A DNA stretch of 64,000 nucleotides from Burkholderia sp. HI2500 (GTDB lineage: Bacteria > Pseudomonadota > Gammaproteobacteria > Burkholderiales > Burkholderiaceae). Position 1 is the stretch's first letter; each line of letters opens with the position of its first letter. The stretch spans positions 992,001 through 1,056,000 of the forward strand of contig NZ_NKFL01000004.1 in NCBI RefSeq assembly GCF_002223055.1, in the 5' to 3' direction. Under the pieces are notes generated by a model. That model did no database searches and had not been told where the DNA came from. It saw only the letters and a list, made by a program, of their open reading frames with translations. This document shows positions 46,072 to 57,233 of the stretch, piece by piece. The position numbers and the translations under genes are program-made.

Positions 46072-46131
46072 TGCCGTGATGCCGCTGGCCGTTTGCTTCC
46101 CGCACCGTTTCTCATTCCTGGCGACGCCGAC

Positions 46132-46938
46132 ATGATTTCATCCATTCCTCCCCTGGTGCGACGCCTGGGGCTGTCCGCTGCGTGTGCGGTGCCGGCGTTG
46201 ACGTTGCCGGCTGCGGCGCACGCGATCGAGCCGGCGGTGGCCGACCGGCTGCTGCGCACGTTCATCCACGACAGCTATGGCAACTGGCGCGCGGACCGCA
46301 AGGGCTGGCAGGCGGACCGCGGCGATCTTGTCTATTCGCCATGCGGTTCGCTGCGCGTCGCGACCGCGGAGGGCCCGCGCACGCTGCTCGCGATGTGCGG
46401 CGAGACCGAGGTGGCCGTGCAGAACGGGATGCCGGGCATGGATACGGACGCGACGACCGGCACGATCGACCTGTACGTGCTGAAACCGGCGGCGGACGGC
46501 AAGACGCTCGAGCCGGTCATGAAGAAAACGGAGATCGCGTCGGGCGGGCGCGGCGAGCCGGGCACGGTGCGTATCGAGCGGCTCGGGCCGCATCTGTTCG
46601 GGTTCGTCATCGGCGAAAGCGACACGCGGCAAGGCTATTCGCAACGCTTCCGCGCGATCTGGCTGCCGGTCGGCAATGCACTGGTGCTGGCGGCGGCGCG
46701 CATCGACGAGGCGCTCGACAACGCGGAGTCGACCGAATGCGCGCACGCGCGGGCGCGCTGCGAGGAACGCCGCTTCGAGATCGCGCCGGACCTGACCGGC
46801 GCCGGCGACGTCTATCCGCTGACGGTCACGGAAACGGGCACGCGCGGCGACAGGACGATCCACGCGCGCCATACGGTGAAGTTCGACGCGGCGCGTGGCC
46901 GCTACGTCGTGCCGAAGGCCTTGCGCGAAGGGTACTGA
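46132..46938 (+). CDS. Secreted protein of unknown function
   Basis: A 268-residue exported protein with a signal peptide (LVRRLGLSAACAVPALTLPAAAHA, cleavage before IEPAV). The mature part is beta-rich; YSPCGSLRVATAEGPRTLLAMCGETEV, TIDLYVLKP and FGFVIGESDTRQGYSQRFRAIWLP are notable, with two cysteine pairs likely forming disulfides (SPCG/AMCG and ECAHARARCEE). No family recognised. ATG 46132 is chosen because it starts directly at the signal sequence; an upstream in-frame ATG exists at 46093. It is 60 bases after the DUF1266-like gene and may be the last gene of that operon. Confidence 0.6.
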   Translation: MISSIPPLVRRLGLSAACAVPALTLPAAAHAIEPAVADRLLRTFIHDSYGNWRADRKGWQADRGDLVYSPCGSLRVATAEGPRTLLAMCGETEVAVQNGMPGMDTDATTGTIDLYVLKPAADGKTLEPVMKKTEIASGGRGEPGTVRIERLGPHLFGFVIGESDTRQGYSQRFRAIWLPVGNALVLAAARIDEALDNAESTECAHARARCEERRFEIAPDLTGAGDVYPLTVTETGTRGDRTIHARHTVKFDAARGRYVVPKALREGY

Positions 46939-46980: not shown

Positions 46981-47910
46981 TCACACGTACAGATACCGCA
47001 CGAGGTGGAAGAACACCGGCGCGGCGAAGCAGATCGAGTCGACGCGATCGAGCATCCCGCCGTGGCCCGCGATCATCGAGCCCCAGTCCTTGGTGCCGAG
47101 CGAGCGCTTGACGGCCGACAGCACGAGGCCGCCGACGAAGCCCGCGATCACGATCGCGAGCGAGATGCCGAACGCCGACCCGAAGCTGAACGGCGTCACA
47201 CGATACAGCGAGGCGCCGCACAGCGTGGCCAGCAGGCCGCCGCCGATGAAACCCTCGATCGTCTTCGACGGCGACAGCTGCGGTGCGATCTTGCGCTTGC
47301 CGAACAGCTTGCCGACCACGTACTGCAGCACGTCGCTGATCTGCACGACGAACAGGAAGAAGAACAGCAGCAGCGCGTTCTGCCCCGCGTAGTGCGGAAT
47401 GTCGAGGATCAGCACGGCCGGCGCATGGCTCAGCCCGTACACGCACACCATCAGCGCCCAGTTGATCTTCGCGTTGCGGCTCAGGAAGTCGCGCGTGTCC
47501 TGCGTGAGTGCCGACACGAGCGACATCGCGAAGAACAGGTGCACGGGCACGAAGATCGAATACATCCCGTACCAGTTGATCCCGAGCAGCAGGTATTGCA
47601 CGGGGATCGCGACGAAGAACGCGATGAACAGCGTCGTATGGTCGCTCGGCGTGGTGGGCGTGAGCGTGATGAATTCGCGCAGCGTCAGGTAGGACAGCAC
47701 CGCGAACACGAGATAGGTGATGTTGTTGCCGAGGCCGATCGCGATGGCCATGATCGCGATCATCGCCCACCACGCACGGATGCGCTGGTTCAGGTTGACG
47801 ATGGTCGCGCTGGTGCCGCCGCTGCGTGCGCCGAGGATCGCGCCGATCACGGTCGCGACGACGAGCACGCCCGTGACGCCCGCGACCAGTTCCCAGAAAA
47901 TGGTTCGCAT
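46981..47910 (-). CDS. ynbB: CDP-diglyceride synthetase (CdsA/YnbB-like)
   Basis: A 309-residue integral membrane cytidylyltransferase that makes CDP-diacylglycerol from phosphatidate and CTP. About eight helices; the family signature is near the C-terminus: SAVKRSLGTKDWGSMIAGHGG followed by MLDRVDS. Further conserved points are QISDVLQYVVGKLFGKRKIAPQLSPSKT. It differs from a housekeeping CdsA by its context: acyltransferase, CDP-alcohol transferase and YnbC/YnbD-type genes surround it, as with E. coli ynbB. It is the second gene of a left-pointing pair, 37 bases behind the acyltransferase gene. The symbol is given by analogy. Confidence 0.88.
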   Translation of the reverse strand: MRTIFWELVAGVTGVLVVATVIGAILGARSGGTSATIVNLNQRIRAWWAMIAIMAIAIGLGNNITYLVFAVLSYLTLREFITLTPTTPSDHTTLFIAFFVAIPVQYLLLGINWYGMYSIFVPVHLFFAMSLVSALTQDTRDFLSRNAKINWALMVCVYGLSHAPAVLILDIPHYAGQNALLLFFFLFVVQISDVLQYVVGKLFGKRKIAPQLSPSKTIEGFIGGGLLATLCGASLYRVTPFSFGSAFGISLAIVIAGFVGGLVLSAVKRSLGTKDWGSMIAGHGGMLDRVDSICFAAPVFFHLVRYLYV

Positions 47911-47947
47911 TATTGATATCCGGAAAAGGGAGAAGAGGGCGCCGCGT

Positions 47948-48580
47948 TCAGCCGGCCGGCCGCTGCGGCGGCGCGAGCGCGACGACCGCGTCGCGCATGC
48001 GGGCGAGGAACGTCGGCTTGTCCTCGTCGGCGCCGCGCTGTTCGTTCGCGCCGAAGTGCACCTTGCAGATCAGCGGCACCGGCCAGATCGCGCCCTTCGG
48101 CATGATCCGCTGCAGGTTCTCGAGATAGACGGGCGCGAGCGCGACGTCCGGAAACTCGGTCGCGAGGTGGAACAGCCCGCTCTTGAACGGCTGCGGCAGG
48201 ATCTCGGCGCCGCGCGTGCCTTCCGGGAAGATGATGATCGAATGGCCCTGCTTGAGCGCGTCGCGCACCGGATCGAGCGGGTCACCGCCGGATTCGCGGT
48301 GGCGGTCGATCAGCACGACGTTCAGCAGCTTCTGCGCGATGTGGCGCTTCATGTCGCTGCTGTCCCAGTAGTCGCGCGCGGCGACCGGCCGCACGACCGC
48401 GCGCACGTTGCGCGGCAGCGCGGCGAGGATCGCGAGCGTGTCGATGTGGCTCGTGTGGTTCGAGAAGTAGATCTTCTGCGTCGGGGACGGCGGCGCCTGA
48501 TGCCAGACCGGATACGCACCGGCGACGAGCCGCACGATGGACAGCAGGAAATCGCGCTGCCAGACGTTGAGGATGTTCAT
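47948..48580 (-). CDS. 1-acyl-sn-glycerol-3-phosphate acyltransferase (PlsC-like)
   Basis: A 210-residue acyltransferase. Block I H42-x4-D47 (NHTSHID) and block III FPEGTRG are intact, and a block II-like segment (VVLIDRHRESGGD) lies between; a hydrophobic N-terminus suggests peripheral membrane association. It would acylate lysophosphatidate to phosphatidate, feeding the cytidylyltransferase encoded 37 bases downstream. ATG 48580 is the family start; upstream frame not conserved. It is divergent from the CDP-alcohol transferase gene over a 456-base regulatory region. It is shorter than housekeeping PlsC proteins and is probably a specialised paralogue. Confidence 0.88.
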   Translation of the reverse strand: MNILNVWQRDFLLSIVRLVAGAYPVWHQAPPSPTQKIYFSNHTSHIDTLAILAALPRNVRAVVRPVAARDYWDSSDMKRHIAQKLLNVVLIDRHRESGGDPLDPVRDALKQGHSIIIFPEGTRGAEILPQPFKSGLFHLATEFPDVALAPVYLENLQRIMPKGAIWPVPLICKVHFGANEQRGADEDKPTFLARMRDAVVALAPPQRPAG

Positions 48581-49036
48581 CGGCGCTGCGCCTCCTGCGT
48601 GCCTGCATGGCCCGCTGCGCATGAGCGGCGGGCGGGACCCCGGAATGCCGGCGCGGCAGGATGCGCGCCGGACGGCCCTTGTTTAAATTTTTTCAAATTC
48701 GTGGCTGCCTGTCGCAGGTCCGCGATAATCGGACGAGTCGCCGTCATACGCTGTTGCGTCGCGGCGAATGCGCCGGTCGGCGGCGTGATAATCGGCTGTT
48801 GCACGCGTGCCCGTTTGCAGTTCGAATGGATCTCGCTGCGATCGGGCCAGCGGATTATCGCGAGTTTCCGTCAAAAACGCCAGATTGGCGCCGCGCGTGC
48901 GGGCCGGGCGCGTGCTTGACGCATCGGGGCCGCTCGGCGACGATGAGGGCCGTCCATGGAAGGCCGTCCAGGGCCGTTTCGCCGCCCGGGGCATGGCGGC
49001 GGGAAATGTATCCGACTGTGCCGCGCAAATAAAACG
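48581..49036. promoter_or_regulatory. Divergent promoter region of the phospholipid cluster with three repeated elements
   Basis: A 456-base gap between divergent lipid genes with no convincing ORF. It contains an AT-rich core (TTTAAATTTTTTCAAATTC, 48682-48700) and three copies of a 12-base element: CGCGATAATCGG (48721-48732), CGTGATAATCGG (48784-48795) and an inverted copy CGGATTATCGCG (48851-48862), spaced about 63-67 bases, that is roughly six helical turns. They are candidate sites for one regulator controlling both transcription units. Confidence 0.55.
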
Positions 49037-49642
49037 ATGAGCCTCTACGCACTCAAACCCAAATTCCAGAACACCCTGCGCCCGTTCGCGAACTCGCTCG
49101 CCGAACGCGGCGTGACGGCCAACCAGGTCACGCTGTTCGCGGCCGGCGGCTCGATCGTCGTCGGCGCGCTCGCCGGGCTCGGCGTGTTTGCCCGCGCGCT
49201 GTTCCTGCTGATCCCGCTGTGGCTGTTCGCGCGCATGGCGCTCAACGCGATCGACGGGATGCTCGCGCGCGAGCACGGCCAGAAGAGCACGCTCGGCGCG
49301 TACCTGAACGAGCTCGGCGACGTCGTGTCCGATGTCGCGCTGGTGCTGCCGTTTCTCGCGATTTCCGCGTTCGCTCCGGCAGACGTCTGGCTGTTCGCGC
49401 TGACGGCGGTGATCGTCGAATGCGCGGGGCTGATCGGCCCGCTGGTCGGCGTCAGCCGCCGCTACGACGGCCCGTTCGGCAAGAGCGACCGTGCGCTCGC
49501 GCTCGGCGCGTTCGCGCTGTGGATCGGACTCGGCTTTCCGGTCGGCGGCGTCGCCGTCTGGCTGTGGCGCCTGCTGATCGTGCTGTCGATCGTGACCGTG
49601 GTGCGGCGCGTGCAGGCCGGCATCGCGGAAAAGGGCGGTTGA
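49037..49642 (+). CDS. ynbA: CDP-alcohol phosphatidyltransferase family protein (YnbA-like)
   Basis: A 201-residue membrane enzyme with about six helices that would transfer phosphatidate from CDP-diacylglycerol to an alcohol. The CDP-alcohol phosphotransferase motif lies at about 70-99: N70-A-I-D73-G74-x2-A77-R78, G87, N91, D95, D99. Two of the four canonical Asp positions (the first and third) are Asn, while D73 and D95 are kept. This may be a feature of the YnbA subgroup or indicate altered metal use. The acceptor alcohol (inositol phosphate, glycerol phosphate or other) is unknown. It starts the right-pointing operon; the YnbC-like gene follows after 105 bases. Confidence 0.8.
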   Translation: MSLYALKPKFQNTLRPFANSLAERGVTANQVTLFAAGGSIVVGALAGLGVFARALFLLIPLWLFARMALNAIDGMLAREHGQKSTLGAYLNELGDVVSDVALVLPFLAISAFAPADVWLFALTAVIVECAGLIGPLVGVSRRYDGPFGKSDRALALGAFALWIGLGFPVGGVAVWLWRLLIVLSIVTVVRRVQAGIAEKGG

Positions 49643-49747
49643 AAGGGCAGTTGAAGCGGCGGGTGAAACAGTCGTCAACACAGTTGCGGTACCGGGCGCC
49701 GGAGGGCGGCGCACCAAGATTCGAATAACGAAACGAGAGAGAAACGC

Positions 49748-51517
49748 ATGAGCGCACGCATGGCCCGCGAGGCCGACTTCATCACGCACGACGGCGAAAC
49801 GCTGTTCTATCGTCACTGGCCCGCCACGGGCCCGTGCTGCCGCGGCGCCATCGTGTTGCTGCACCGCGGCCACGAACACTCGGCGCGCGTCGCGCACCTG
49901 GTCGACGAGCTCGACCTGCCCGATTTCGCATTTTTCGCATGGGATGCGCGCGGCCACGGCCGCTCGCCCGGCGCGCGCGGCTACAGCCCGAGCGCGGCCG
50001 CGTCGGTGCGCGACCTTCAGACCTTCGTCGAACATATCCGCGACTCGCACGGCATCGCGATCGAGGACATGGCGGTGGTCGGCCAGAGCGTCGGCGCGGT
50101 GCTCGCGGCCACCTGGGCGCACGACTACGCGCCGCCGATCCGCGCGCTCGTCGTCGCGTCGCCGGCGTTCCACATCAAGCTCTACGTGCCGTTCGCGCGG
50201 CCGGGCCTGCGGTTGATGCACAAGCTGCGCGGGCTGTTCTACGTGAACAGCTACGTGAAGCCGAAATTCCTCACGCACGATCCCGAGCGGATCGCGAGCT
50301 ATGCGTCCGATCCGCTGATCACGCGGCCGATCGCGGTCAACATGCTGCTCGACCTGCACGACACCGCGCAGCGGATCGTCGCCGACGCGGCCGCGATCAC
50401 CGTGCCGACGCAGCTGCTGATCTCCGGCGCCGACTGGGTCGTGCATCGCGGCCCGCAGGACCGCTTCTTCGAACGCCTCGGCGCCGCGCGCAAGGAGCGC
50501 ATCGTGCTGCCGGGCTTCTATCACGACACGCTCGGCGAACGCGACCGCGCGCAGGCGCTCGCCCCGCTGCGTGCATTCGTGCTGCGCGAATTCGATGCGC
50601 CGAGCCCGCGCGTGTCGCTCGCCGACGCCGACCGGCGCGGCGCGTTCCACGACGAATACGCGGCGCTCGGCCGGCCGCCCGCGAATGCGTTCGCGCGGGC
50701 GTACTGGGCGCTCACGCGCGCCGGCCTGAAGGCCGGCGGCGCGCTGTCGGACGGCATCGCGCTCGGGCTGCGCCTCGGCTTCGATTCGGGCTCGACACTC
50801 GACTACGTGTACCGCAACCGCGCGCAAGGGCGGCTCGGCGTCGGCGCGCTGATCGACCGCACCTATCTCGATTCGCCGGGCTGGGTCGGCATCCGCCAGC
50901 GCAAGGTGCATCTGCAGGAGCTGATCGGCGCGGCGATCGGCCGCCTGCGCGGCCACGGCTCACCGGTGCGGATCGTCGACATCGCGGCGGGACACGGGCG
51001 CTACGTGCTCGACGCGATCGCGTCGGCCGCCGAGCGCGACGGCGCGGCGCCCGACGACATCACGCTGCGCGACTACAGCCCGCCGAACGTCGAGGCCGGG
51101 CGCGTGCTGATCGCGCAGCGCGGCCTCGAGTCGATCGCGCGCTTCGAGCGCGGCGATGCGTTCGACGAGGCGTCGCTCGCGACGCTCGAGCCGCGTCCGA
51201 CGCTCGCGATCGTGTCGGGCCTCTACGAGCTGTTCGGCGAGAACGCGCTGATCGAGCGCTCGCTGCGCGGGCTCGCGCAGGCCGTGCCGCCGGGCGGCTA
51301 TCTCGTCTATACGGGGCAGCCGTGGCATCCGCAGCTCGAGTTCATCGCCCGTGCGCTGAACAATCACCGCGGCGAAGCGACCTGGGTGATGCGCCGCCGC
51401 TCGCAGGCCGAGATGGACGAGCTCGTCGCGCGCGCGGGCTTCCGCAAGCTCGACCAGCGGATCGACGAAATGGGCATCTTCACGGTCAGCCTCGCGCAGC
51501 GGGTCGACGCGTCATGA
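49748..51517 (+). CDS. ynbC: Bifunctional alpha/beta hydrolase-methyltransferase (YnbC-like)
   Basis: A 589-residue two-domain protein. Residues 1-285 form a lysophospholipase-like alpha/beta hydrolase: LLHRGHEHSARV replaces the usual HG oxyanion segment, the nucleophile is S114 in VVGQSVGAV, and late GADWVVHR and PGFYHDTLG supply the Asp and His. Residues 380-585 form a class I SAM-dependent methyltransferase with motif I VDIAAGHGRYVLD (about 410-420). The fusion is typical of YnbC. It could trim or transfer an acyl group and methylate the head group, but the reaction is unknown. AGAGAGA precedes the ATG; the stop overlaps the next gene (ATGA). Confidence 0.85.
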   Translation: MSARMAREADFITHDGETLFYRHWPATGPCCRGAIVLLHRGHEHSARVAHLVDELDLPDFAFFAWDARGHGRSPGARGYSPSAAASVRDLQTFVEHIRDSHGIAIEDMAVVGQSVGAVLAATWAHDYAPPIRALVVASPAFHIKLYVPFARPGLRLMHKLRGLFYVNSYVKPKFLTHDPERIASYASDPLITRPIAVNMLLDLHDTAQRIVADAAAITVPTQLLISGADWVVHRGPQDRFFERLGAARKERIVLPGFYHDTLGERDRAQALAPLRAFVLREFDAPSPRVSLADADRRGAFHDEYAALGRPPANAFARAYWALTRAGLKAGGALSDGIALGLRLGFDSGSTLDYVYRNRAQGRLGVGALIDRTYLDSPGWVGIRQRKVHLQELIGAAIGRLRGHGSPVRIVDIAAGHGRYVLDAIASAAERDGAAPDDITLRDYSPPNVEAGRVLIAQRGLESIARFERGDAFDEASLATLEPRPTLAIVSGLYELFGENALIERSLRGLAQAVPPGGYLVYTGQPWHPQLEFIARALNNHRGEATWVMRRRSQAEMDELVARAGFRKLDQRIDEMGIFTVSLAQRVDAS

Positions 51518-52926
51518 GCGCGCTCGGCGGCGGCGCGAGCGACCTCGCCGAACCGGCCCCGGCGGCCGGCGCCGGCGCGCGCGACGCGTCGTTCGCGCTG
51601 CGTTTCGGCTGGCTCGCGGTGATGGGCGCCGTGTTCTTCTCGACCTACGGTTTCGCGAACTGGCTCGCCGCGCGCCGCGTGGCGGTGCCGACCTTCGCGT
51701 TCGGCTGGGAGCACGCGATCCCGTTCGTGCCGTGGACGATCGTGCCGTACTGGTCGATCGACCTGCTGTATGCGCTGTCGTTCTTTTTCTGGACGCGCCG
51801 CGCCGACCTGCTCGATCACGTGAAGCGGCTGTTGACCGTGCAGCTGATCTCGGTCGCGTGCTTCATCGCGTGGCCGCTGCGCTTCGGGTTCGAGCGGCCC
51901 GACGCCGGCGGCGTGGCCGGTGCGCTGTTTACGCTACTGATGGGCTTCGACAAGCCGTTCAACCAGGCGCCGTCGCTGCACATCGGGTTGCTCGTCGTGC
52001 TGTGGGCCGTGTATGCGAAGCACCTGCGCGGCACGCTCGCGCGCGGCGTGCTGCACCTGTGGTTCGCGGCGATCGGCGTGTCGGTGCTGACCACCTACCA
52101 GCATCACGCGATCGACGTGCCGACCGGCGCTGCCGTCGGCTGTCTCGCGCTGTTCCTGTTTCCGCTGCGCGATGCCGCGGGCCGGCTGCCGGGCGCCGAT
52201 GCGTCGCCGGGCGCGGCCGGCCGTGCGCTCGCGCGCCGCTATGCGCTTGGCGCGGCGGCGCTCGCGCTCGTGGCGCTCGGGTGCGTGCCGCGCGCGCCCG
52301 GCTGGGCGCTGGCGGCCGGGTGGGTCGCGCTGGCGCTCGCCTGTGTCGCGTGGATCTACCGGCGCGGCGCGCCCGGCGCCTTCCAGAAGGACGCGTTCGG
52401 GCGGTTCCCGGTCGTCATGCGCTGGCTGCTCGCGCCGACGATTGCGGGCGCGTTCATCAATTCGCGGCTGTGGACGTTCCGGCAGCCGGCGCCGGTGCGG
52501 ATCGACGAACGCGTGTCGATCGGGCGTACGCCGACGACACGCGACGTGCGCCGCCACGGCTTCACGGCGCTGGTCGACCTGACCGCCGAAATGCCGCGCT
52601 GGGCGTCGGTGGATGCGTCGCTCGCGTATGCGACCGTGCCGCAGCTCGATCTCGTCGCGCCGACGGCCGGGCAACTCGCGCAGGCCGTCGCGGCGCTCGA
52701 AAGCCTGCATGGGGAAGGGCGCGACGTGCTGGTCTGCTGCGCGCTCGGCTACGGGCGCAGCGTGCTGTGCGCGGCCGCGTGGCTGGCGGCGCGACGCGGG
52801 CTCGGCGATGCGCGCGACGCGCTGGCCGCGGTGCGTGCGGTACGGCCGCATGCGGTGTGGTCGGACGACGGCGTGGCCGTGCTGCAGCAGTGGGTCGATC
52901 GCCGTCGCGGCGCGGGAGGCGCGTGA
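51514..52926 (+). CDS. ynbD: PAP2 phosphatase/synthase fused to dual-specificity phosphatase (YnbD-like)
   Basis: A 470-residue membrane protein. The N-terminal part (about 30-330) has some eight helices with PAP2/inositol-phosphorylceramide-synthase type motifs: PSLH153-156 and H197-x3-D201 (YQHHAID). The C-terminal cytoplasmic domain (about 345-465) is a dual-specificity phosphatase with C409-x5-R415 (CALGYGRS) as catalytic loop. Such a fusion could remove a phosphate from a newly formed phosphatidyl-alcohol phosphate, much as the phosphatase PTPMT1 acts on phosphatidylglycerophosphate; this is inference. The start overlaps the YnbC-like stop, and the stop overlaps the next gene (TGATG). 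Confidence 0.85.
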   Translation: MSALGGGASDLAEPAPAAGAGARDASFALRFGWLAVMGAVFFSTYGFANWLAARRVAVPTFAFGWEHAIPFVPWTIVPYWSIDLLYALSFFFWTRRADLLDHVKRLLTVQLISVACFIAWPLRFGFERPDAGGVAGALFTLLMGFDKPFNQAPSLHIGLLVVLWAVYAKHLRGTLARGVLHLWFAAIGVSVLTTYQHHAIDVPTGAAVGCLALFLFPLRDAAGRLPGADASPGAAGRALARRYALGAAALALVALGCVPRAPGWALAAGWVALALACVAWIYRRGAPGAFQKDAFGRFPVVMRWLLAPTIAGAFINSRLWTFRQPAPVRIDERVSIGRTPTTRDVRRHGFTALVDLTAEMPRWASVDASLAYATVPQLDLVAPTAGQLAQAVAALESLHGEGRDVLVCCALGYGRSVLCAAAWLAARRGLGDARDALAAVRAVRPHAVWSDDGVAVLQQWVDRRRGAGGA

Positions 52927-53378
52927 TGCGCGACCCGTCCGCGCCATTCAGGATTGCCGCCGCGCGCGGCGCGCTCGATGCAGGCGCGTGGGCGATCGCG
53001 GCCGCGCTGGCCGCGGCCGGCGCCGGCTGGTGGATCGCGTCGGGCTGGGCGCCGGCGACGATCGCCCGCGTGCTGCTGGCGGTGGTCAGCACTGGGTCGG
53101 GGATCGTGGCGCTGTGGTACGCGGTGCGCATCGAGATCGACCGCCGGCTGTTCGCCGCGCTCGCGCGTGCGGCGGCGGGCGACGGATCGGTCGACGACGG
53201 CCTCGCGGCGCTCGACCGCGCACTCGCCGATCTCGGCTGGATCGATGCGTCGAAGGCCGGGCGCGCACTCGACGCACGCGTGCGCGGTGCGGTCGGGCTG
53301 TGCCGGGCCGGTGTGCTCGTCGCGATCGTCCAGTGGCTCGTGGTCGGGCTCGCGATCGCCGTTCCGCAGATCGGCTAG
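52926..53378 (+). CDS. Small membrane protein of the ynb-like cluster
   Basis: A 150-residue protein with three predicted membrane helices (about 20-40, 43-67 and 122-145) and a soluble, acidic loop (RAAAGDGSVDDGLAALDRAL). No family recognised. Its ATG overlaps the TGA of the phosphatase gene, so it is translated as part of the YnbA-YnbC-YnbD operon and likely acts in the same membrane pathway. It has no counterpart in E. coli ynbABCD as I recall that locus. It converges with the GGDEF gene across a hairpin. Confidence 0.65.
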   Translation: MRDPSAPFRIAAARGALDAGAWAIAAALAAAGAGWWIASGWAPATIARVLLAVVSTGSGIVALWYAVRIEIDRRLFAALARAAAGDGSVDDGLAALDRALADLGWIDASKAGRALDARVRGAVGLCRAGVLVAIVQWLVVGLAIAVPQIG

Positions 53379-53421: not shown

Positions 53422-54444
53422 TTACGCGTGAGCGACCCGTTGCGACCGCGTGCGTTTCACTTCATACATCGCCTGGTCCGCGTGCTCGATCAGCGCGTTC
53501 ATGTCGGTGCCGTCGTCGGGCAGCAGCGCGATCCCGACGCTGACGCCGAGCCGCATCGGGCGCCCCTCGAATTCGAACGGTTCACTGACCTGGCGCGCGA
53601 GCCGCGTGCTTTGCGCATGCGCATCGTCGCGATTGCCGATGTTCGGCAGGATCACCGCGAATTCGTCGCCGCCGATGCGTGCGACCGTGTCCGAGCGCCG
53701 CACCGCCCCCTGCATCCGCGTGGCGATCTCGCGCAGCGCCGCGTCGCCCGCGCGATGGCCGAACCCGTCGTTGATCGGCTTCAGCCCGTCCATGTCGATG
53801 TTGAGGATGCCGAGCCGGCCGTTCGCGCGCAGCGTCGTGTGCATCGACTGCCGCAGGCGGTCGTAGAACAGCGCGCGGTTGGGCAGGCCCGTGAGCGCGT
53901 CGTGTGTCGCGCGCAGGTACAGTTCGTTCGCCTCGTTGCGCGCCGCGTGGAACATCGCGGCGGCGATCAGGTCGGCCGTCAGCCGCAGCGTGGCCGCGTC
54001 GGCCTGCGAAAAGCCGTCGACTTCCGGCGACATCACTTTCAGCACGCCGACGGTCGTGTCGGCATGGGTGAGCGGCATCACGAGCATCGAGCGCAGGCCG
54101 ACCCGCCGGCAGGCGTCGCGATCGACGCGCGGGTCGGTTTCCGAGTCGATGCAGTGCAGCAACGCGCCTTGCTGCACGCACAGGCCCGACAGGCTGCCCG
54201 AGCGCCGCAGCCGCAGGCCGAGCATCCCGGCGGCCGTGCCCGACGCGGCGCGGTACACCATGTCGTCGCCCTCGGCGAATTCGACCGCGGCGGCGCTCGC
54301 GCCGGTGAGCTGCGGCACCTGCTCGGCCACGTAGGCCATCACGCTGCCGAGATCGAGGCCGAGCTTCGCGATCTCGGTCTGCACGGCGATGATGCGCAGC
54401 AGCGTATCGGGGGACGGGGTGGCAGTGTCGACGATTTGATTCAA
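53422..54444 (-). CDS. GAF-GGDEF diguanylate cyclase
   Basis: A diguanylate cyclase of about 340 residues. A GAF domain (about 25-165) is followed by a GGDEF domain with intact GGDEF at 258-262 and the product-inhibition site R249-R-S-D252 five residues before it, so it should make c-di-GMP under feedback control. No membrane helix. The open frame continues well upstream, but that part looks non-coding; the first sensible start is a TTG at 54444, so the start is uncertain. It is divergent from the cellulose operon, whose synthase needs c-di-GMP, suggesting a dedicated or local supply. Confidence 0.85.
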   Translation of the reverse strand: MNQIVDTATPSPDTLLRIIAVQTEIAKLGLDLGSVMAYVAEQVPQLTGASAAAVEFAEGDDMVYRAASGTAAGMLGLRLRRSGSLSGLCVQQGALLHCIDSETDPRVDRDACRRVGLRSMLVMPLTHADTTVGVLKVMSPEVDGFSQADAATLRLTADLIAAAMFHAARNEANELYLRATHDALTGLPNRALFYDRLRQSMHTTLRANGRLGILNIDMDGLKPINDGFGHRAGDAALREIATRMQGAVRRSDTVARIGGDEFAVILPNIGNRDDAHAQSTRLARQVSEPFEFEGRPMRLGVSVGIALLPDDGTDMNALIEHADQAMYEVKRTRSQRVAHA

Positions 54445-54795
54445 GTCAGTTTTCCGTGAAAGAAAGCACGTCCGGCAGCGCGGATTGCGGTAGCATACGC
54501 GCCGCCTCGCGGCCGCGTGTTCAGCCGGGGTGGTCTGCAACGGACCGCCGCCGGCCAGCCGATCCGCGCCGGCAGTATGCCGTTCGGCCTGCCGGGCGAC
54601 AACGGCGCAATTCTTACCATTCATCCCTCTCGCGCAGCATTTCCGACCGGATTGAGGTTTTTTCGCTTCAATGTCGCGAATCGTGGTGAGTTTTGTCCTG
54701 TTTTTGAGATAGTGTGACGAATGGGCGTGTGCCGGTGCCAGGCGCGCGTAGCACGATGCCGTGCGATTAAAGAAATCGCCGCATCGTTTCGATAA
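54445..54795. other. Intergenic region between GGDEF gene and cellulose operon
   Basis: About 350 bases without a recognised gene. TATGCT (about 54491-54496, left-pointing strand) may be a -10 for the GGDEF gene. AT content rises from 54600 to 54800, with TTGAGGTTTTTTCGC and GTTTTTGAGATAGTGTGA, where the promoter of the cellulose operon should be. No clear -35/-10 pair or known operator was identified. Confidence 0.4.
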
Positions 54796-54927
54796 ATGAA
54801 TCAGGCCAGTTGGATACATATGAGGGAAGCAGTGGGGATGTTCACTCACGGGCATAGCTGCTTTGCGGGCATCGATTCCGATGCGACGGACGACCGGATG
54901 ATCCTGATGAAACGGAGTGCCGCATGA
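54796..54927 (+). CDS. Possible 43-residue ORF coupled to bcsB
   Basis: A short frame from ATG 54796 (another ATG at 54820) ends at a TGA (54925-54927) that overlaps the bcsB ATG (ATGA). The peptide contains GMFTHGHSCFAGIDSDATDD and no membrane segment. Cellulose operons often begin with small accessory genes such as bcsR, but no resemblance to BcsR is evident. No convincing ribosome-binding site. It could be a coupling leader or chance. Confidence 0.35.
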   Translation: MNQASWIHMREAVGMFTHGHSCFAGIDSDATDDRMILMKRSAA

Positions 54928-57233
54928 AGCCGGCCGTGTCGCTGCTCATCCTCTCGGCCGCGATGGCCGGCGCCTTTCATGCCGCCGCGCTGTCGGCCGC
55001 GCCGATGCCGGCCGTGCCAGTTGCGGCCGCGTCCGGCGCTGCGCCGGCGCCGGTGCTTGCGGCCGCGCCCGCGGCGGCCAGCCCGAGCCCAGCCGGCCTG
55101 CCGGCGACGACGGTGCGCCTGCCGTTCGCGTCGCTCGGCGCGTTCGATCCGCTGCGCCTGCGCGGCGCCGACGACGCCCGCACGATCAATGCGGGCGTGC
55201 GACTCGACCGCGTGGTCACCGGCGCGCGGCTGCGCCTGACCTACGCGTATTCGCCGTCGCTGGTGTTCCCGATGTCGCACCTGAAGGTGTCGGTGAACGG
55301 CGAGGTCATCGCGACCGTCCCGTTCGACGCCGCGCAGGCGGGCCGCACGGTCACGCAAGAGATCCCGATCGATCCGCGCTACTTCTCGGATTTCAACCAG
55401 ATCGGCCTGCGCCTGATCGCGCACTACACGCTCGACCATTGCGAGGATCCGTCGAACTCGGCGCTGTGGGCCGACGTGAGCCCGAAGAGCGAGCTGATCC
55501 TCGACGAATCGCCGGTCCGCCTGCCGAACGATCTCGCGCTGCTGCCCGCGCCGTTCTTCGACCGGCGCGACAACGGCCGCGTGCGGCTGCCGTTCGTGCT
55601 GCCGGCGTCGCCCGATTCGGCGACGCTGCGCAGCGCGGGCGTGCTCGCGTCGTGGTTCGGCGCGCTGGCCGACTACCGGCATGCGCGCTTCCCGGTGTCG
55701 ACCGGGCTGCCGGCCGACGACCAAGCGGTGGTGATCGGCACGGCCGCGACGCTGCCGGCCGGCCTCGCGCTGCCGTCGATCAACGGCCCGCTGCTCGCGG
55801 TGGCCGACAACCCGGCCGCGCCGGGGCGCAAGCTGCTCGTCGTCACGGGCCGCACGGCGGCCGAGGTCGACGATGCGGTCGCGACGCTCGTGCTGGGCCG
55901 CGCGGCGCTGTCGGGGCCGTCGGCGACGGTCGCGCACGTCGATCTCGGCGCGCCGCGCAAACCGTACGACGCGCCGCGCTGGCTGCCGGTGAACCGGCCG
56001 ATCACGTTCCGCGAGCTCGTGTCCGATACGCGCGAGCTGGAAGTGCGCGGCACGTCGCCCGACGCCATTCGCCTGAACCTGCGCGTGCCGTCCGACCTCC
56101 ATTCGTGGAACGGCGCGGGCGTGCCGATCACGCTGCGCTACCGCTACACGGCGCCGACGGTGCAGGACAACTCGACGCTTGCCGTCGAGATCAACGACCA
56201 GCTCGTGAAGTCGTACCGGCTCGGGCCGGCCCATGCCGAGGACGCGCACGGCCGCATGCAGCTGCCGTTGCTGTCGGTGCCGGAAGGGCGCGTGACGAGC
56301 GACGTCGACATCCCGGCGTTCCGGGTCGGCAGCGGCAACCAGCTGCAGTTCCGCTTCACGCTCGACTCGCAGAAGACGGGCCTGTGCTCGAGCACGGCGA
56401 CCGAGCCGCAGCGTGCGGCGATCGATCCCGATTCGACGATCGACTTCTCGCACTTCGTCCATTACGCGCAGTTGCCGAACCTGGCGTTCTTCGCGAACAG
56501 CGGCTTCCCGTTCACGCGCTTCGCCGACCTGTCGCAGACGGCCGTCGTGATGCCCGACCGGCCGTCGCCGCAGGAGCTCGAGGCCTACCTGACGATGCTC
56601 GGCCACATGGGCGAATGGACCGGCTTCCCGGCGCTGCGCGTGCAGGTCGCGCGGCCCGGCGACGTCGCCGCGCTGTCGGGCAGCAAGGATCTCCTCGTGA
56701 TCGACGGCTCGCCCGCGTCGCCGCTGCTCGCGCACTGGCGCTCGGCGCTGCCGCTCGTGATCGGCGAGCAGGGCAGCGCGGGCGGCGAGGGCGCCGCGCG
56801 CATCGCCTTCTCGGTGAAGGAGCGCTGGCGCAACGGCGTCGGCCTGACCGAAGGCGGCGCGCACATCGAGCAGACGGGCTCGCTCGCGGCGCTCGCCGGG
56901 TTCGAGCTGCCGGGCAGCCGGGGGCGCAGCGTCGTCGCGCTGACGGCGACCGACCAGCCGCGCCTCGGCGATCTGCTCAACGTGTTCGAGAACGCCGGGC
57001 TCGTGTCGCAGCTGCAGGGCGACCTGGCGCTGGTGCGGCCGGGGCAGGTCGACAGCCTGCGCGTCGGCGAGCCTTACGTGGTCGGGTTCGTGCCGTGGTA
57101 TGCGCGGGTGTGGACGCAGGCGGCGCGGCATCCGGTCGTGCTGGGCGCGGTCGGCGTCGTGGCGGGGCTGCTGCTCGCGCTCGGCGTGTTCAGCGTGCTG
57201 CAGAGAATCGCCGCGCGTCGACGGGGGATGTAA
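54924..57233 (+). CDS. bcsB: Cellulose synthase regulatory subunit BcsB
   Basis: A 769-residue periplasmic protein anchored by a C-terminal helix (about 740-760, PVVLGAVGVVAGLLLALGVF). A signal peptide and Ala/Pro-rich stretch precede alternating carbohydrate-binding and flavodoxin-like domains, with LTYAYSPSLVFPMSHLKVSVNG, HCEDPSNSALWADVS and VGFVPWYARVWTQAARHP as family landmarks. BcsB guides the glucan chain from BcsA across the periplasm. No bcsA gene precedes it, which is unusual, as bcsA normally lies directly upstream; it may be beyond the right edge or elsewhere. The bcsZ gene starts 3 bases after its stop. Confidence 0.93.
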   Translation: MKPAVSLLILSAAMAGAFHAAALSAAPMPAVPVAAASGAAPAPVLAAAPAAASPSPAGLPATTVRLPFASLGAFDPLRLRGADDARTINAGVRLDRVVTGARLRLTYAYSPSLVFPMSHLKVSVNGEVIATVPFDAAQAGRTVTQEIPIDPRYFSDFNQIGLRLIAHYTLDHCEDPSNSALWADVSPKSELILDESPVRLPNDLALLPAPFFDRRDNGRVRLPFVLPASPDSATLRSAGVLASWFGALADYRHARFPVSTGLPADDQAVVIGTAATLPAGLALPSINGPLLAVADNPAAPGRKLLVVTGRTAAEVDDAVATLVLGRAALSGPSATVAHVDLGAPRKPYDAPRWLPVNRPITFRELVSDTRELEVRGTSPDAIRLNLRVPSDLHSWNGAGVPITLRYRYTAPTVQDNSTLAVEINDQLVKSYRLGPAHAEDAHGRMQLPLLSVPEGRVTSDVDIPAFRVGSGNQLQFRFTLDSQKTGLCSSTATEPQRAAIDPDSTIDFSHFVHYAQLPNLAFFANSGFPFTRFADLSQTAVVMPDRPSPQELEAYLTMLGHMGEWTGFPALRVQVARPGDVAALSGSKDLLVIDGSPASPLLAHWRSALPLVIGEQGSAGGEGAARIAFSVKERWRNGVGLTEGGAHIEQTGSLAALAGFELPGSRGRSVVALTATDQPRLGDLLNVFENAGLVSQLQGDLALVRPGQVDSLRVGEPYVVGFVPWYARVWTQAARHPVVLGAVGVVAGLLLALGVFSVLQRIAARRRGM

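Follow-up and report, generated by a model that had tools for sequence, protein, structure and literature searches.

Phospholipid synthesis in Escherichia coli is usually regarded as worked out. The ynb cluster is widespread in E. coli and in Pseudomonadota, yet it is without a known product, and its first protein, YnbA, resembles the CDP-alcohol phosphotransferases. The signature of this enzyme family, D1xxD2G1xxAR...G2xxxD3xxxD4, comprises eight residues described as absolutely conserved, of which D1 to D3 are metal ligands and D4 is the likely base (PMC4634129); in the mycobacterial phosphatidylinositol-phosphate (PIP) synthase, D68, D71 and D89 hold Mg-1, D89 also holds Mg-2, and the base is presumed to be D93 (PMC6506517). 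The subject of this text is a relative of the ynb cluster in Burkholderia sp. HI2500, located at 46981-53378 of a stretch of 64,000 nucleotides (the window; contig NZ_NKFL01000004.1, positions 992,001 to 1,056,000). Its six genes, here called A, B, C, D, P and S, lie in two divergent operons, B-P on the minus strand and A-C-D-S on the plus strand, as the original prediction for this DNA had proposed, and Pfam matches and coordinates place all six there. That prediction also saw in them a self-contained alternative phospholipid pathway, which is still the best single reading at about even chances: co-travel of the genes and catalytic motifs in B, P, C and the dual-specificity phosphatase (DSP) half of D argue for it, but ordinary transferase chemistry is doubtful for YnbA, since its D1 and D3 are both Asn.

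The window YnbA (A; 49037-49642, plus strand, 201 residues) barely passes the CDP-OH_P_transf model (22.4 bits, cut-off 22), contains six hydrophobic stretches and has sequence matches to the PIPS and AF2299 structures. It carries Asn at D1 (N70) and at D3 (N91), while D2 (D73) and D4 (D95) are retained, and the same Asn/Asn motif is found in E. coli YnbA. In a single fixed sample of 398 Pseudomonadota genomes searched by profile, with at least 160 bits taken as a strong YnbA match, 37 genomes (about one in 11) carry A. Among these, D1 is Asn in 36 and Ala in one and D3 is Asn in all 37, whereas the rest of the class I signature is intact (D73, G74, A77, G87 and D95 in 37/37; R78, of the ‘AR’ pair, in 36/37). 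A wider set of 118 loci, made up of the 37 sampled genomes, E. coli and 80 named loci (the best 80 of 572 confirmed from 591 pattern matches), has Asn at D1 in 117 and at D3 in 118; one search pattern for the named loci held an LNE stretch and thus biased that set for N91, a bias from which the 37-genome sample is free. The three other CDP-alcohol phosphotransferases (PF01066) of the Burkholderia genome have Asp at D1, D3 and D4. The replacement is therefore neither a sequencing error nor a quirk of a single lineage. Three acidic residues, E79, E92 and E128, are invariant in YnbA, and E92 (37/37) directly follows the Asn at D3. The genes appear to be under purifying selection, with ratios of nonsynonymous to synonymous substitution of 0.14-0.40 for ynbA to ynbD between two E. 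coli strains and of 0.08-0.18 when A, B and C of the window are compared with those of a congener.

The Asn/Asn signature extends beyond YnbA to a sister family, represented in the 398-genome sample by 12 weaker matches to the YnbA model (42-55 bits). All 12 have Asn at both D1 and D3, with E or D following the one at D3, and the Arg of ‘AR’ is replaced by Val, Ile or Met. In total, the Asn/Asn class occurs in 48 of the 398 genomes, 37 with YnbA (including the one with Ala at D1 and one broken copy) and 11 with the sister family only. In 11 of the 12 loci, the sister transferase has both a YnbB-type gene (335-515 bits) and a P-type gene (192-307 bits) nearby; in the twelfth, L211, neither type was found within the 16 kb examined. 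With the same models, the other CTP_transf_1 gene of the window genome scores 83 bits against 484 for B, and three other PF01553 genes score 36-52 against 305 for P. In three sister loci (L209, L212 and L213) a small membrane-type open reading frame (ORF) sits between the B-type gene and the transferase. A maximum-likelihood tree of 55 rows, from which L096 was omitted as too short, places YnbA on one side of a branch with support 100/99 and the sister family likewise with 99/97; a split of both from six canonical rows (95/85) is tentative, as long branches meet there. The tree is compatible with a single origin of the Asn/Asn signature. On the simplest reading, an Asn/Asn transferase, a YnbB-type synthase and an acyltransferase form an old three-gene unit, two members of which remain in the E. 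coli cluster. Such a transferase, accompanied by an acyltransferase and a CDP-diacylglycerol (CDP-DAG) synthase of its own, looks like the core of the system.

Because two metal ligands are replaced, ordinary CDP-alcohol transferase chemistry is doubtful for YnbA. A rival view sees it as a pseudo-enzyme with the Asn/Asn signature: YnbA would bind CDP-DAG or some anionic ligand and act as a regulator of B and P or as a scaffold for them, while these two would supply phosphatidate or CDP-DAG for another use. The near-complete replacement of D1 and D3 in YnbA and in all 12 sister proteins fits this idea, as does the loss of the Arg of ‘AR’ in the sister family. We nevertheless regard it as quite unlikely, since D2, D4, G1, A and G2 are kept in 37/37, the acceptor-site arginines described below are kept as well, and the acidic residue after N91 (E92, with E or D at this place in each of the 12 sister proteins) could stand in for D3; the purifying selection counts against it as well, although it would be compatible with a scaffold too.

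The original prediction had proposed a survey of gene neighbourhoods as a test of itself, and this survey found that the genes do travel together: B and P both lie at most 9.5 kb from A in 98 of the 118 loci, and A adjoins C in all 27 sampled genomes that have C (strong Methyltransf_20 match; two weaker second matches to PF12147, of 29.5 and 19.8 bits, were excluded). Near A in the 37 genomes are B in 33, P in 32 (B and P both in 32), C in 27, D in 25, S in 25 and all six genes in 23; in the 118 loci the corresponding numbers are 104 for B, 98 for P, 89 for C, 84 for D, 81 for S and 73 for all six. Loci close to contig ends may miss genes, and one carrier, G257, is only 68% complete. In the 398-genome sample, C is found only in genomes with A, and the same holds for full-length D (at least 464 bits), which occurs in 26 genomes, each with A and C, one C genome being without D. 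Partial matches to the D model in 17 further genomes cover mostly the DSP half or the PAP2 half and were not counted as full-length D. Within the 118 loci, each of the 81 with S also has D, and none has D without C. The six genes co-occur in several arrangements: the commonest is a single run A-C-D-S-P-B (54/118), which a Cupriavidus necator genome (L132) also has, while the layout of the window, with B-P divergent from A-C-D-S, is found in 12/118 and is a special arrangement of Burkholderia-type loci. C, D and S were considered as core parts and rejected as such, since 22 of the 118 loci carry A with B and P only, with C, D and S absent near A; C, D and S are dispensable additions to the cluster. 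In genome G204, D and an S-like ORF (identified by eye; L193, 8324-10019) lie about 42 kb from A-C-P-B, and this separate pair suggests that the two genes travel as one unit. One genome carries a 717-residue protein with a WG-repeat match between C and D (L054:10208-12361).

B (46981-47910, minus strand, 309 residues) is a YnbB-type CDP-DAG synthase-like protein (PF01148, CTP_transf_1; 211 bits, cut-off 24) with the C-terminal CDP-DAG synthase signature, SAVKRSLGTKDWGSMIAGHGGMLDRVD, which is one residue off the PROSITE pattern, with Ala where the pattern has Pro or Gly. P (47948-48622, minus strand, 224 residues) is a PlsC-like acyltransferase (PF01553, Acyltransferase; 57 bits, cut-off 23) with the motifs HTSHID and FPEGTR. 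YnbC (C; 49748-51517, plus strand, 589 residues) is a fusion of an alpha/beta hydrolase resembling monoacylglycerol lipase (Hydrolase_4, 238 bits) with a Methyltransf_20 domain (453 bits); the motifs GQSVG and DIAAGHGR are present, and the top Protein Data Bank (PDB) match is the monoacylglycerol lipase 6qe2 (E 8e-21). YnbD (D; 51514-52926, plus strand, 470 residues) joins a PAP2-like membrane domain to a C-terminal DSP domain (DSPc 44 bits; PAP2_3 18 bits, below the cut-off of 27). Its DSP half has the Cys-x5-Arg motif, and both C409 and R415 are unchanged throughout the 39 rows of alignment A4, some of which begin upstream of the likely D start codon; the residue before the catalytic Cys is Cys in the window protein and His in E. 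coli. The predicted model has a mean pLDDT (predicted local distance difference test) of 90.9, and its DSP half resembles PTPMT1 and other dual-specificity phosphatases. PAP2 enzymes share the motifs K..RP, PSGH and SR..H..D; in the PAP2 half of D, PSLH and HHxxD are invariant in the 39 rows and the Arg of the third motif is absent. Among these 39 relatives (E <= 0.1), 29 match PAP2_3 and 30 match PAP2. Foldseek and VIA-align rows for the whole D model nearly all run from residue ~315 on, i.e., outside the PAP2 half, and a PDB profile search with that half gave weak matches only, among them phospholipid phosphatase 1 (E 0.008). Elsewhere, the membrane-DSP half of YnbD is fused to a lipid kinase domain (DAGK_cat) in proteins of about 540 residues (L190, L191 and L192; three examined). 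The last gene, S (52926-53378, plus strand, 150 residues), encodes a small membrane protein without a match among Pfam or NCBIfam models and is a conserved partner of D, its homologues following D in other loci. Start and stop codons overlap between C and D (ATGA) and between D and S (TGATG). The divergent intergenic region (48623-49036) holds a candidate promoter before A (TTGACG...GACGAT-like, a consensus match only); TTGACG is kept in 11 of 11 aligned regions upstream of A, again as a consensus match, and regarding regulation this alignment gave nothing but the promoter candidate.

The proposal that the transferase step yields a phosphatidyl-alcohol phosphate has gained ground. The two best NCBIfam models for the window YnbA are archaetidylinositol-phosphate synthase (73 bits, cut-off 180) and PIP synthase (45 bits, cut-off 170; models NF045883 and NF040950), and both are matched by 61 of 61 scanned YnbA relatives, although the window protein stays far below the curated cut-offs. 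In RsPIPS, R153 and R191 are the proposed holders of the acceptor phosphate (PMC4634129); R152 and R191 of YnbA align with them and are present in 36/37, with one gap. Given the matches to PIP-synthase-type models and the kept arginine pair, the acceptor of YnbA is probably an alcohol phosphate. However, inositol-1-phosphate synthase (PF01658), which would supply inositol-1-phosphate, was not found in 33 of the 37 YnbA carriers, the window genome included; among control genomes PF01658 matched six, and E. coli was not one of them. De novo inositol phosphate therefore cannot be the general acceptor, and an inositol lipid as the general product was rejected on these grounds.

Taken together, the cluster may be a dedicated side branch of phospholipid synthesis that makes a phosphatidyl-polyol, with an alcohol phosphate other than that of inositol as the starting alcohol, a reading to which we give just under an even chance. 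From gene content, motifs, co-travel, the Asn/Asn signature, the arginine pair and the inositol-phosphate synthase result, all read from the sequence, we infer every catalytic step, their order, the topology and the product. P would acylate a lysophospholipid, probably lysophosphatidate, to phosphatidate, which B would convert to CDP-DAG separate from the housekeeping pool. A would then transfer the phosphatidyl group to a phosphorylated alcohol other than de novo inositol phosphate, giving a phosphatidyl-alcohol-phosphate whose outer phosphate may be stripped off by the DSP half of D. Later edits to the headgroup, to the chains or to methyl groups could fall to C and to the PAP2 half of D, for which S would be a membrane partner. 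Several points weigh against this scheme besides the replaced metal ligands. We know of no lipid change described for the cluster. The steps assigned to C, D and S are not needed everywhere, as the loci with A, B and P only indicate, and 11 of the 37 YnbA genomes have no full-length D anywhere. PF01658 is present in four carriers (G123, G274, G262 and G103), so that an inositol product is possible in those four. Finally, overproduction of E. coli YnbB raises the level of the glycolipid MPIase about as much as that of CdsA does, but leaves the loss of cdsA without rescue (PMC6362211).

In a different explanation, YnbB and YnbA make a pyrophosphate-linked glycolipid starter, N-acetylglucosamine-pyrophosphate-diacylglycerol (GlcNAc-PP-DAG), by an MPIase-type route, in which the phosphate of a sugar-1-phosphate rather than a hydroxyl attacks CDP-DAG, and D, C and S process the glycolipid. 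The rise in MPIase on YnbB overproduction speaks for it. The reaction would be a CMP-releasing transfer from CDP-DAG, the altered metal site of YnbA, which is without two acidic ligands, would suit a phosphate nucleophile, and the phosphate-site arginines are retained. In addition, ynbB is one of five genes with insertions depleted in a strain making only phosphoglyceride-linked enterobacterial common antigen (ECA) (PMC8609368). However, the same report states that ynbB is not required for making phosphoglyceride-linked ECA (PMC8609368), and deletion of ynbB has a marginal effect on MPIase, without a noticeable drop (PMC6362211). The presumed base D4, needless for a phosphate nucleophile, is kept in 37/37. 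A carriers also include Rhizobium and Neisseria, which are not known as MPIase makers and count against this route. On balance we consider it unlikely. Experiments in E. coli also bear on the proposal that the cluster duplicates the normal synthesis of phosphatidylglycerol or phosphatidate, as a backup or for times of stress, with YnbA as a second phosphatidylglycerol-phosphate (PGP) synthase and YnbD as a PGP phosphatase. It is reported that YnbB does not substitute for CdsA, loss of cdsA not being rescued (PMC6362211), and that YnbD, even when induced, does not rescue mutants in the PGP or undecaprenyl-pyrophosphate (C55-PP) phosphatases (PMC7413402), which makes a mere duplicate of the housekeeping route unlikely. 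The pgsA model, moreover, gives the window YnbA 18.6 bits, against 45 for PIP synthase and 73 for archaetidylinositol-phosphate synthase, and we hold the backup function to be very improbable. Both a special lipid and a starter for a glycolipid are compatible with the E. coli data, whereas straightforward duplication is disfavoured.

The gene neighbourhood in enterobacteria adds a possible destination for the product. The K-12 ynbABCD cluster is matched in 4579 of 5426 complete E. coli genomes, over at least 80% of its length in 4242; in some strains, such as ET12567 and E8, insertion sequences lie under the ynb match. Among presumed Enterobacteriaceae (the family of G370 was taken as such from its E. 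coli-like genes), ynbA is present in 18 of the 89 genera sampled. In six of these 18, ynbA is preceded on its own strand, at a distance of 0.6-0.75 kb, by the phospholipid-transport gene ydbH (e.g., L090:8307-13703, where the gene in between is YdbL-like, DUF1318); in one genus ydbH lies at 21 kb, and in 11/18 it is farther away or on another contig. We consider it possible, though doubtful, that the Asn/Asn transferases use a remodelled metal site and, with their own YnbB-type synthase and PlsC-type acyltransferase, make an undescribed phospholipid even in E. coli K-12, which might be passed to the YdbH/YnbE outer-membrane transport route.

The window cluster lies in a genome of 8.26 Mb, and the named YnbA proteins closest to its own are those of Burkholderia lata and B. 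cepacia. Adjoining B is a gene at 46093-46938 (plus strand) for a protein of 281 residues, X, which by eye has a likely signal peptide and is matched by no Pfam or NCBIfam model. X occurs in five of the 398 genomes (E <= 1e-6), within about 3 kb of ynb genes in four of the five. It was not accepted as a seventh component, as it was not found in the congener G324, and its link to ynb may be due to chance, since in family f17 it sits between purH/purD-like genes (named by eye). Downstream of the cluster follow a gene for a GAF-GGDEF protein (53422-54855, minus strand) and a BcsB-like cellulose-synthase gene (by eye; 54924-57233, plus strand).

New here are the Asn/Asn signature, the three-gene core that YnbA shares with its sister family, and findings that argue against a general use of de novo inositol phosphate as the acceptor. 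The literature searched by title and abstract opening, a coverage outside which most subscription papers fall, gave no report of an Asn/Asn class of CDP-alcohol phosphotransferases or of an A-B-P module. The signature raises a clear catalytic question, the A-B-P core groups the genes of interest together, also for E. coli, where P is not beside the others, and the ydbH neighbourhood points toward the outer membrane. If the proposed branch is real, a bacterium that has been studied in great depth would gain one more lipid, and a large family of enzymes a catalytic variant.

Among described systems, the closest is E. coli K-12 ynbABCD (b1408-b1411), which the original prediction had rightly named with respect to A to D (44, 36, 57 and 38% identity, respectively), although the gene content agrees only in part: the E. 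coli genes form one operon, A-B-C-D, with no P or S beside it, whereas the window has two operons. MPIase, or GlcNAc-PP-DAG, synthesis by CdsA and YnbB shares a cluster member, YnbB, but the available text of the report mentions no role for YnbA, C or D (PMC6362211). The PIP synthases (PIPS/PgsA1; PDB 6h53 and 5d91) and archaetidylinositol-phosphate synthases resemble YnbA in sequence, 6h53 being its top PDB match (profile, E 1.9e-9), and in the acceptor arginines; YnbA differs in the Asn residues at D1 and D3 and in model scores below the cut-offs. At the level of a whole pathway, the comparison is with the inositol-lipid cluster BT_1522-BT_1526 of Bacteroides thetaiotaomicron, which comprises a CDP-alcohol transferase acting on an alcohol phosphate, a dedicated phosphatase and an AUR1-like enzyme, and in which loss of BT_1525 makes a phosphorylated precursor accumulate (PMC9246714). 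In that cluster, unlike the window, the Asp signature is complete (BT_1523), a PgpA-like protein serves as the phosphatase, an own inositol-phosphate synthase is present, and no CDP-DAG synthase or PlsC gene is described in the part of the report available (PMC9246714). In the window, D joins a PAP2-like domain and a phosphatase in a single protein.

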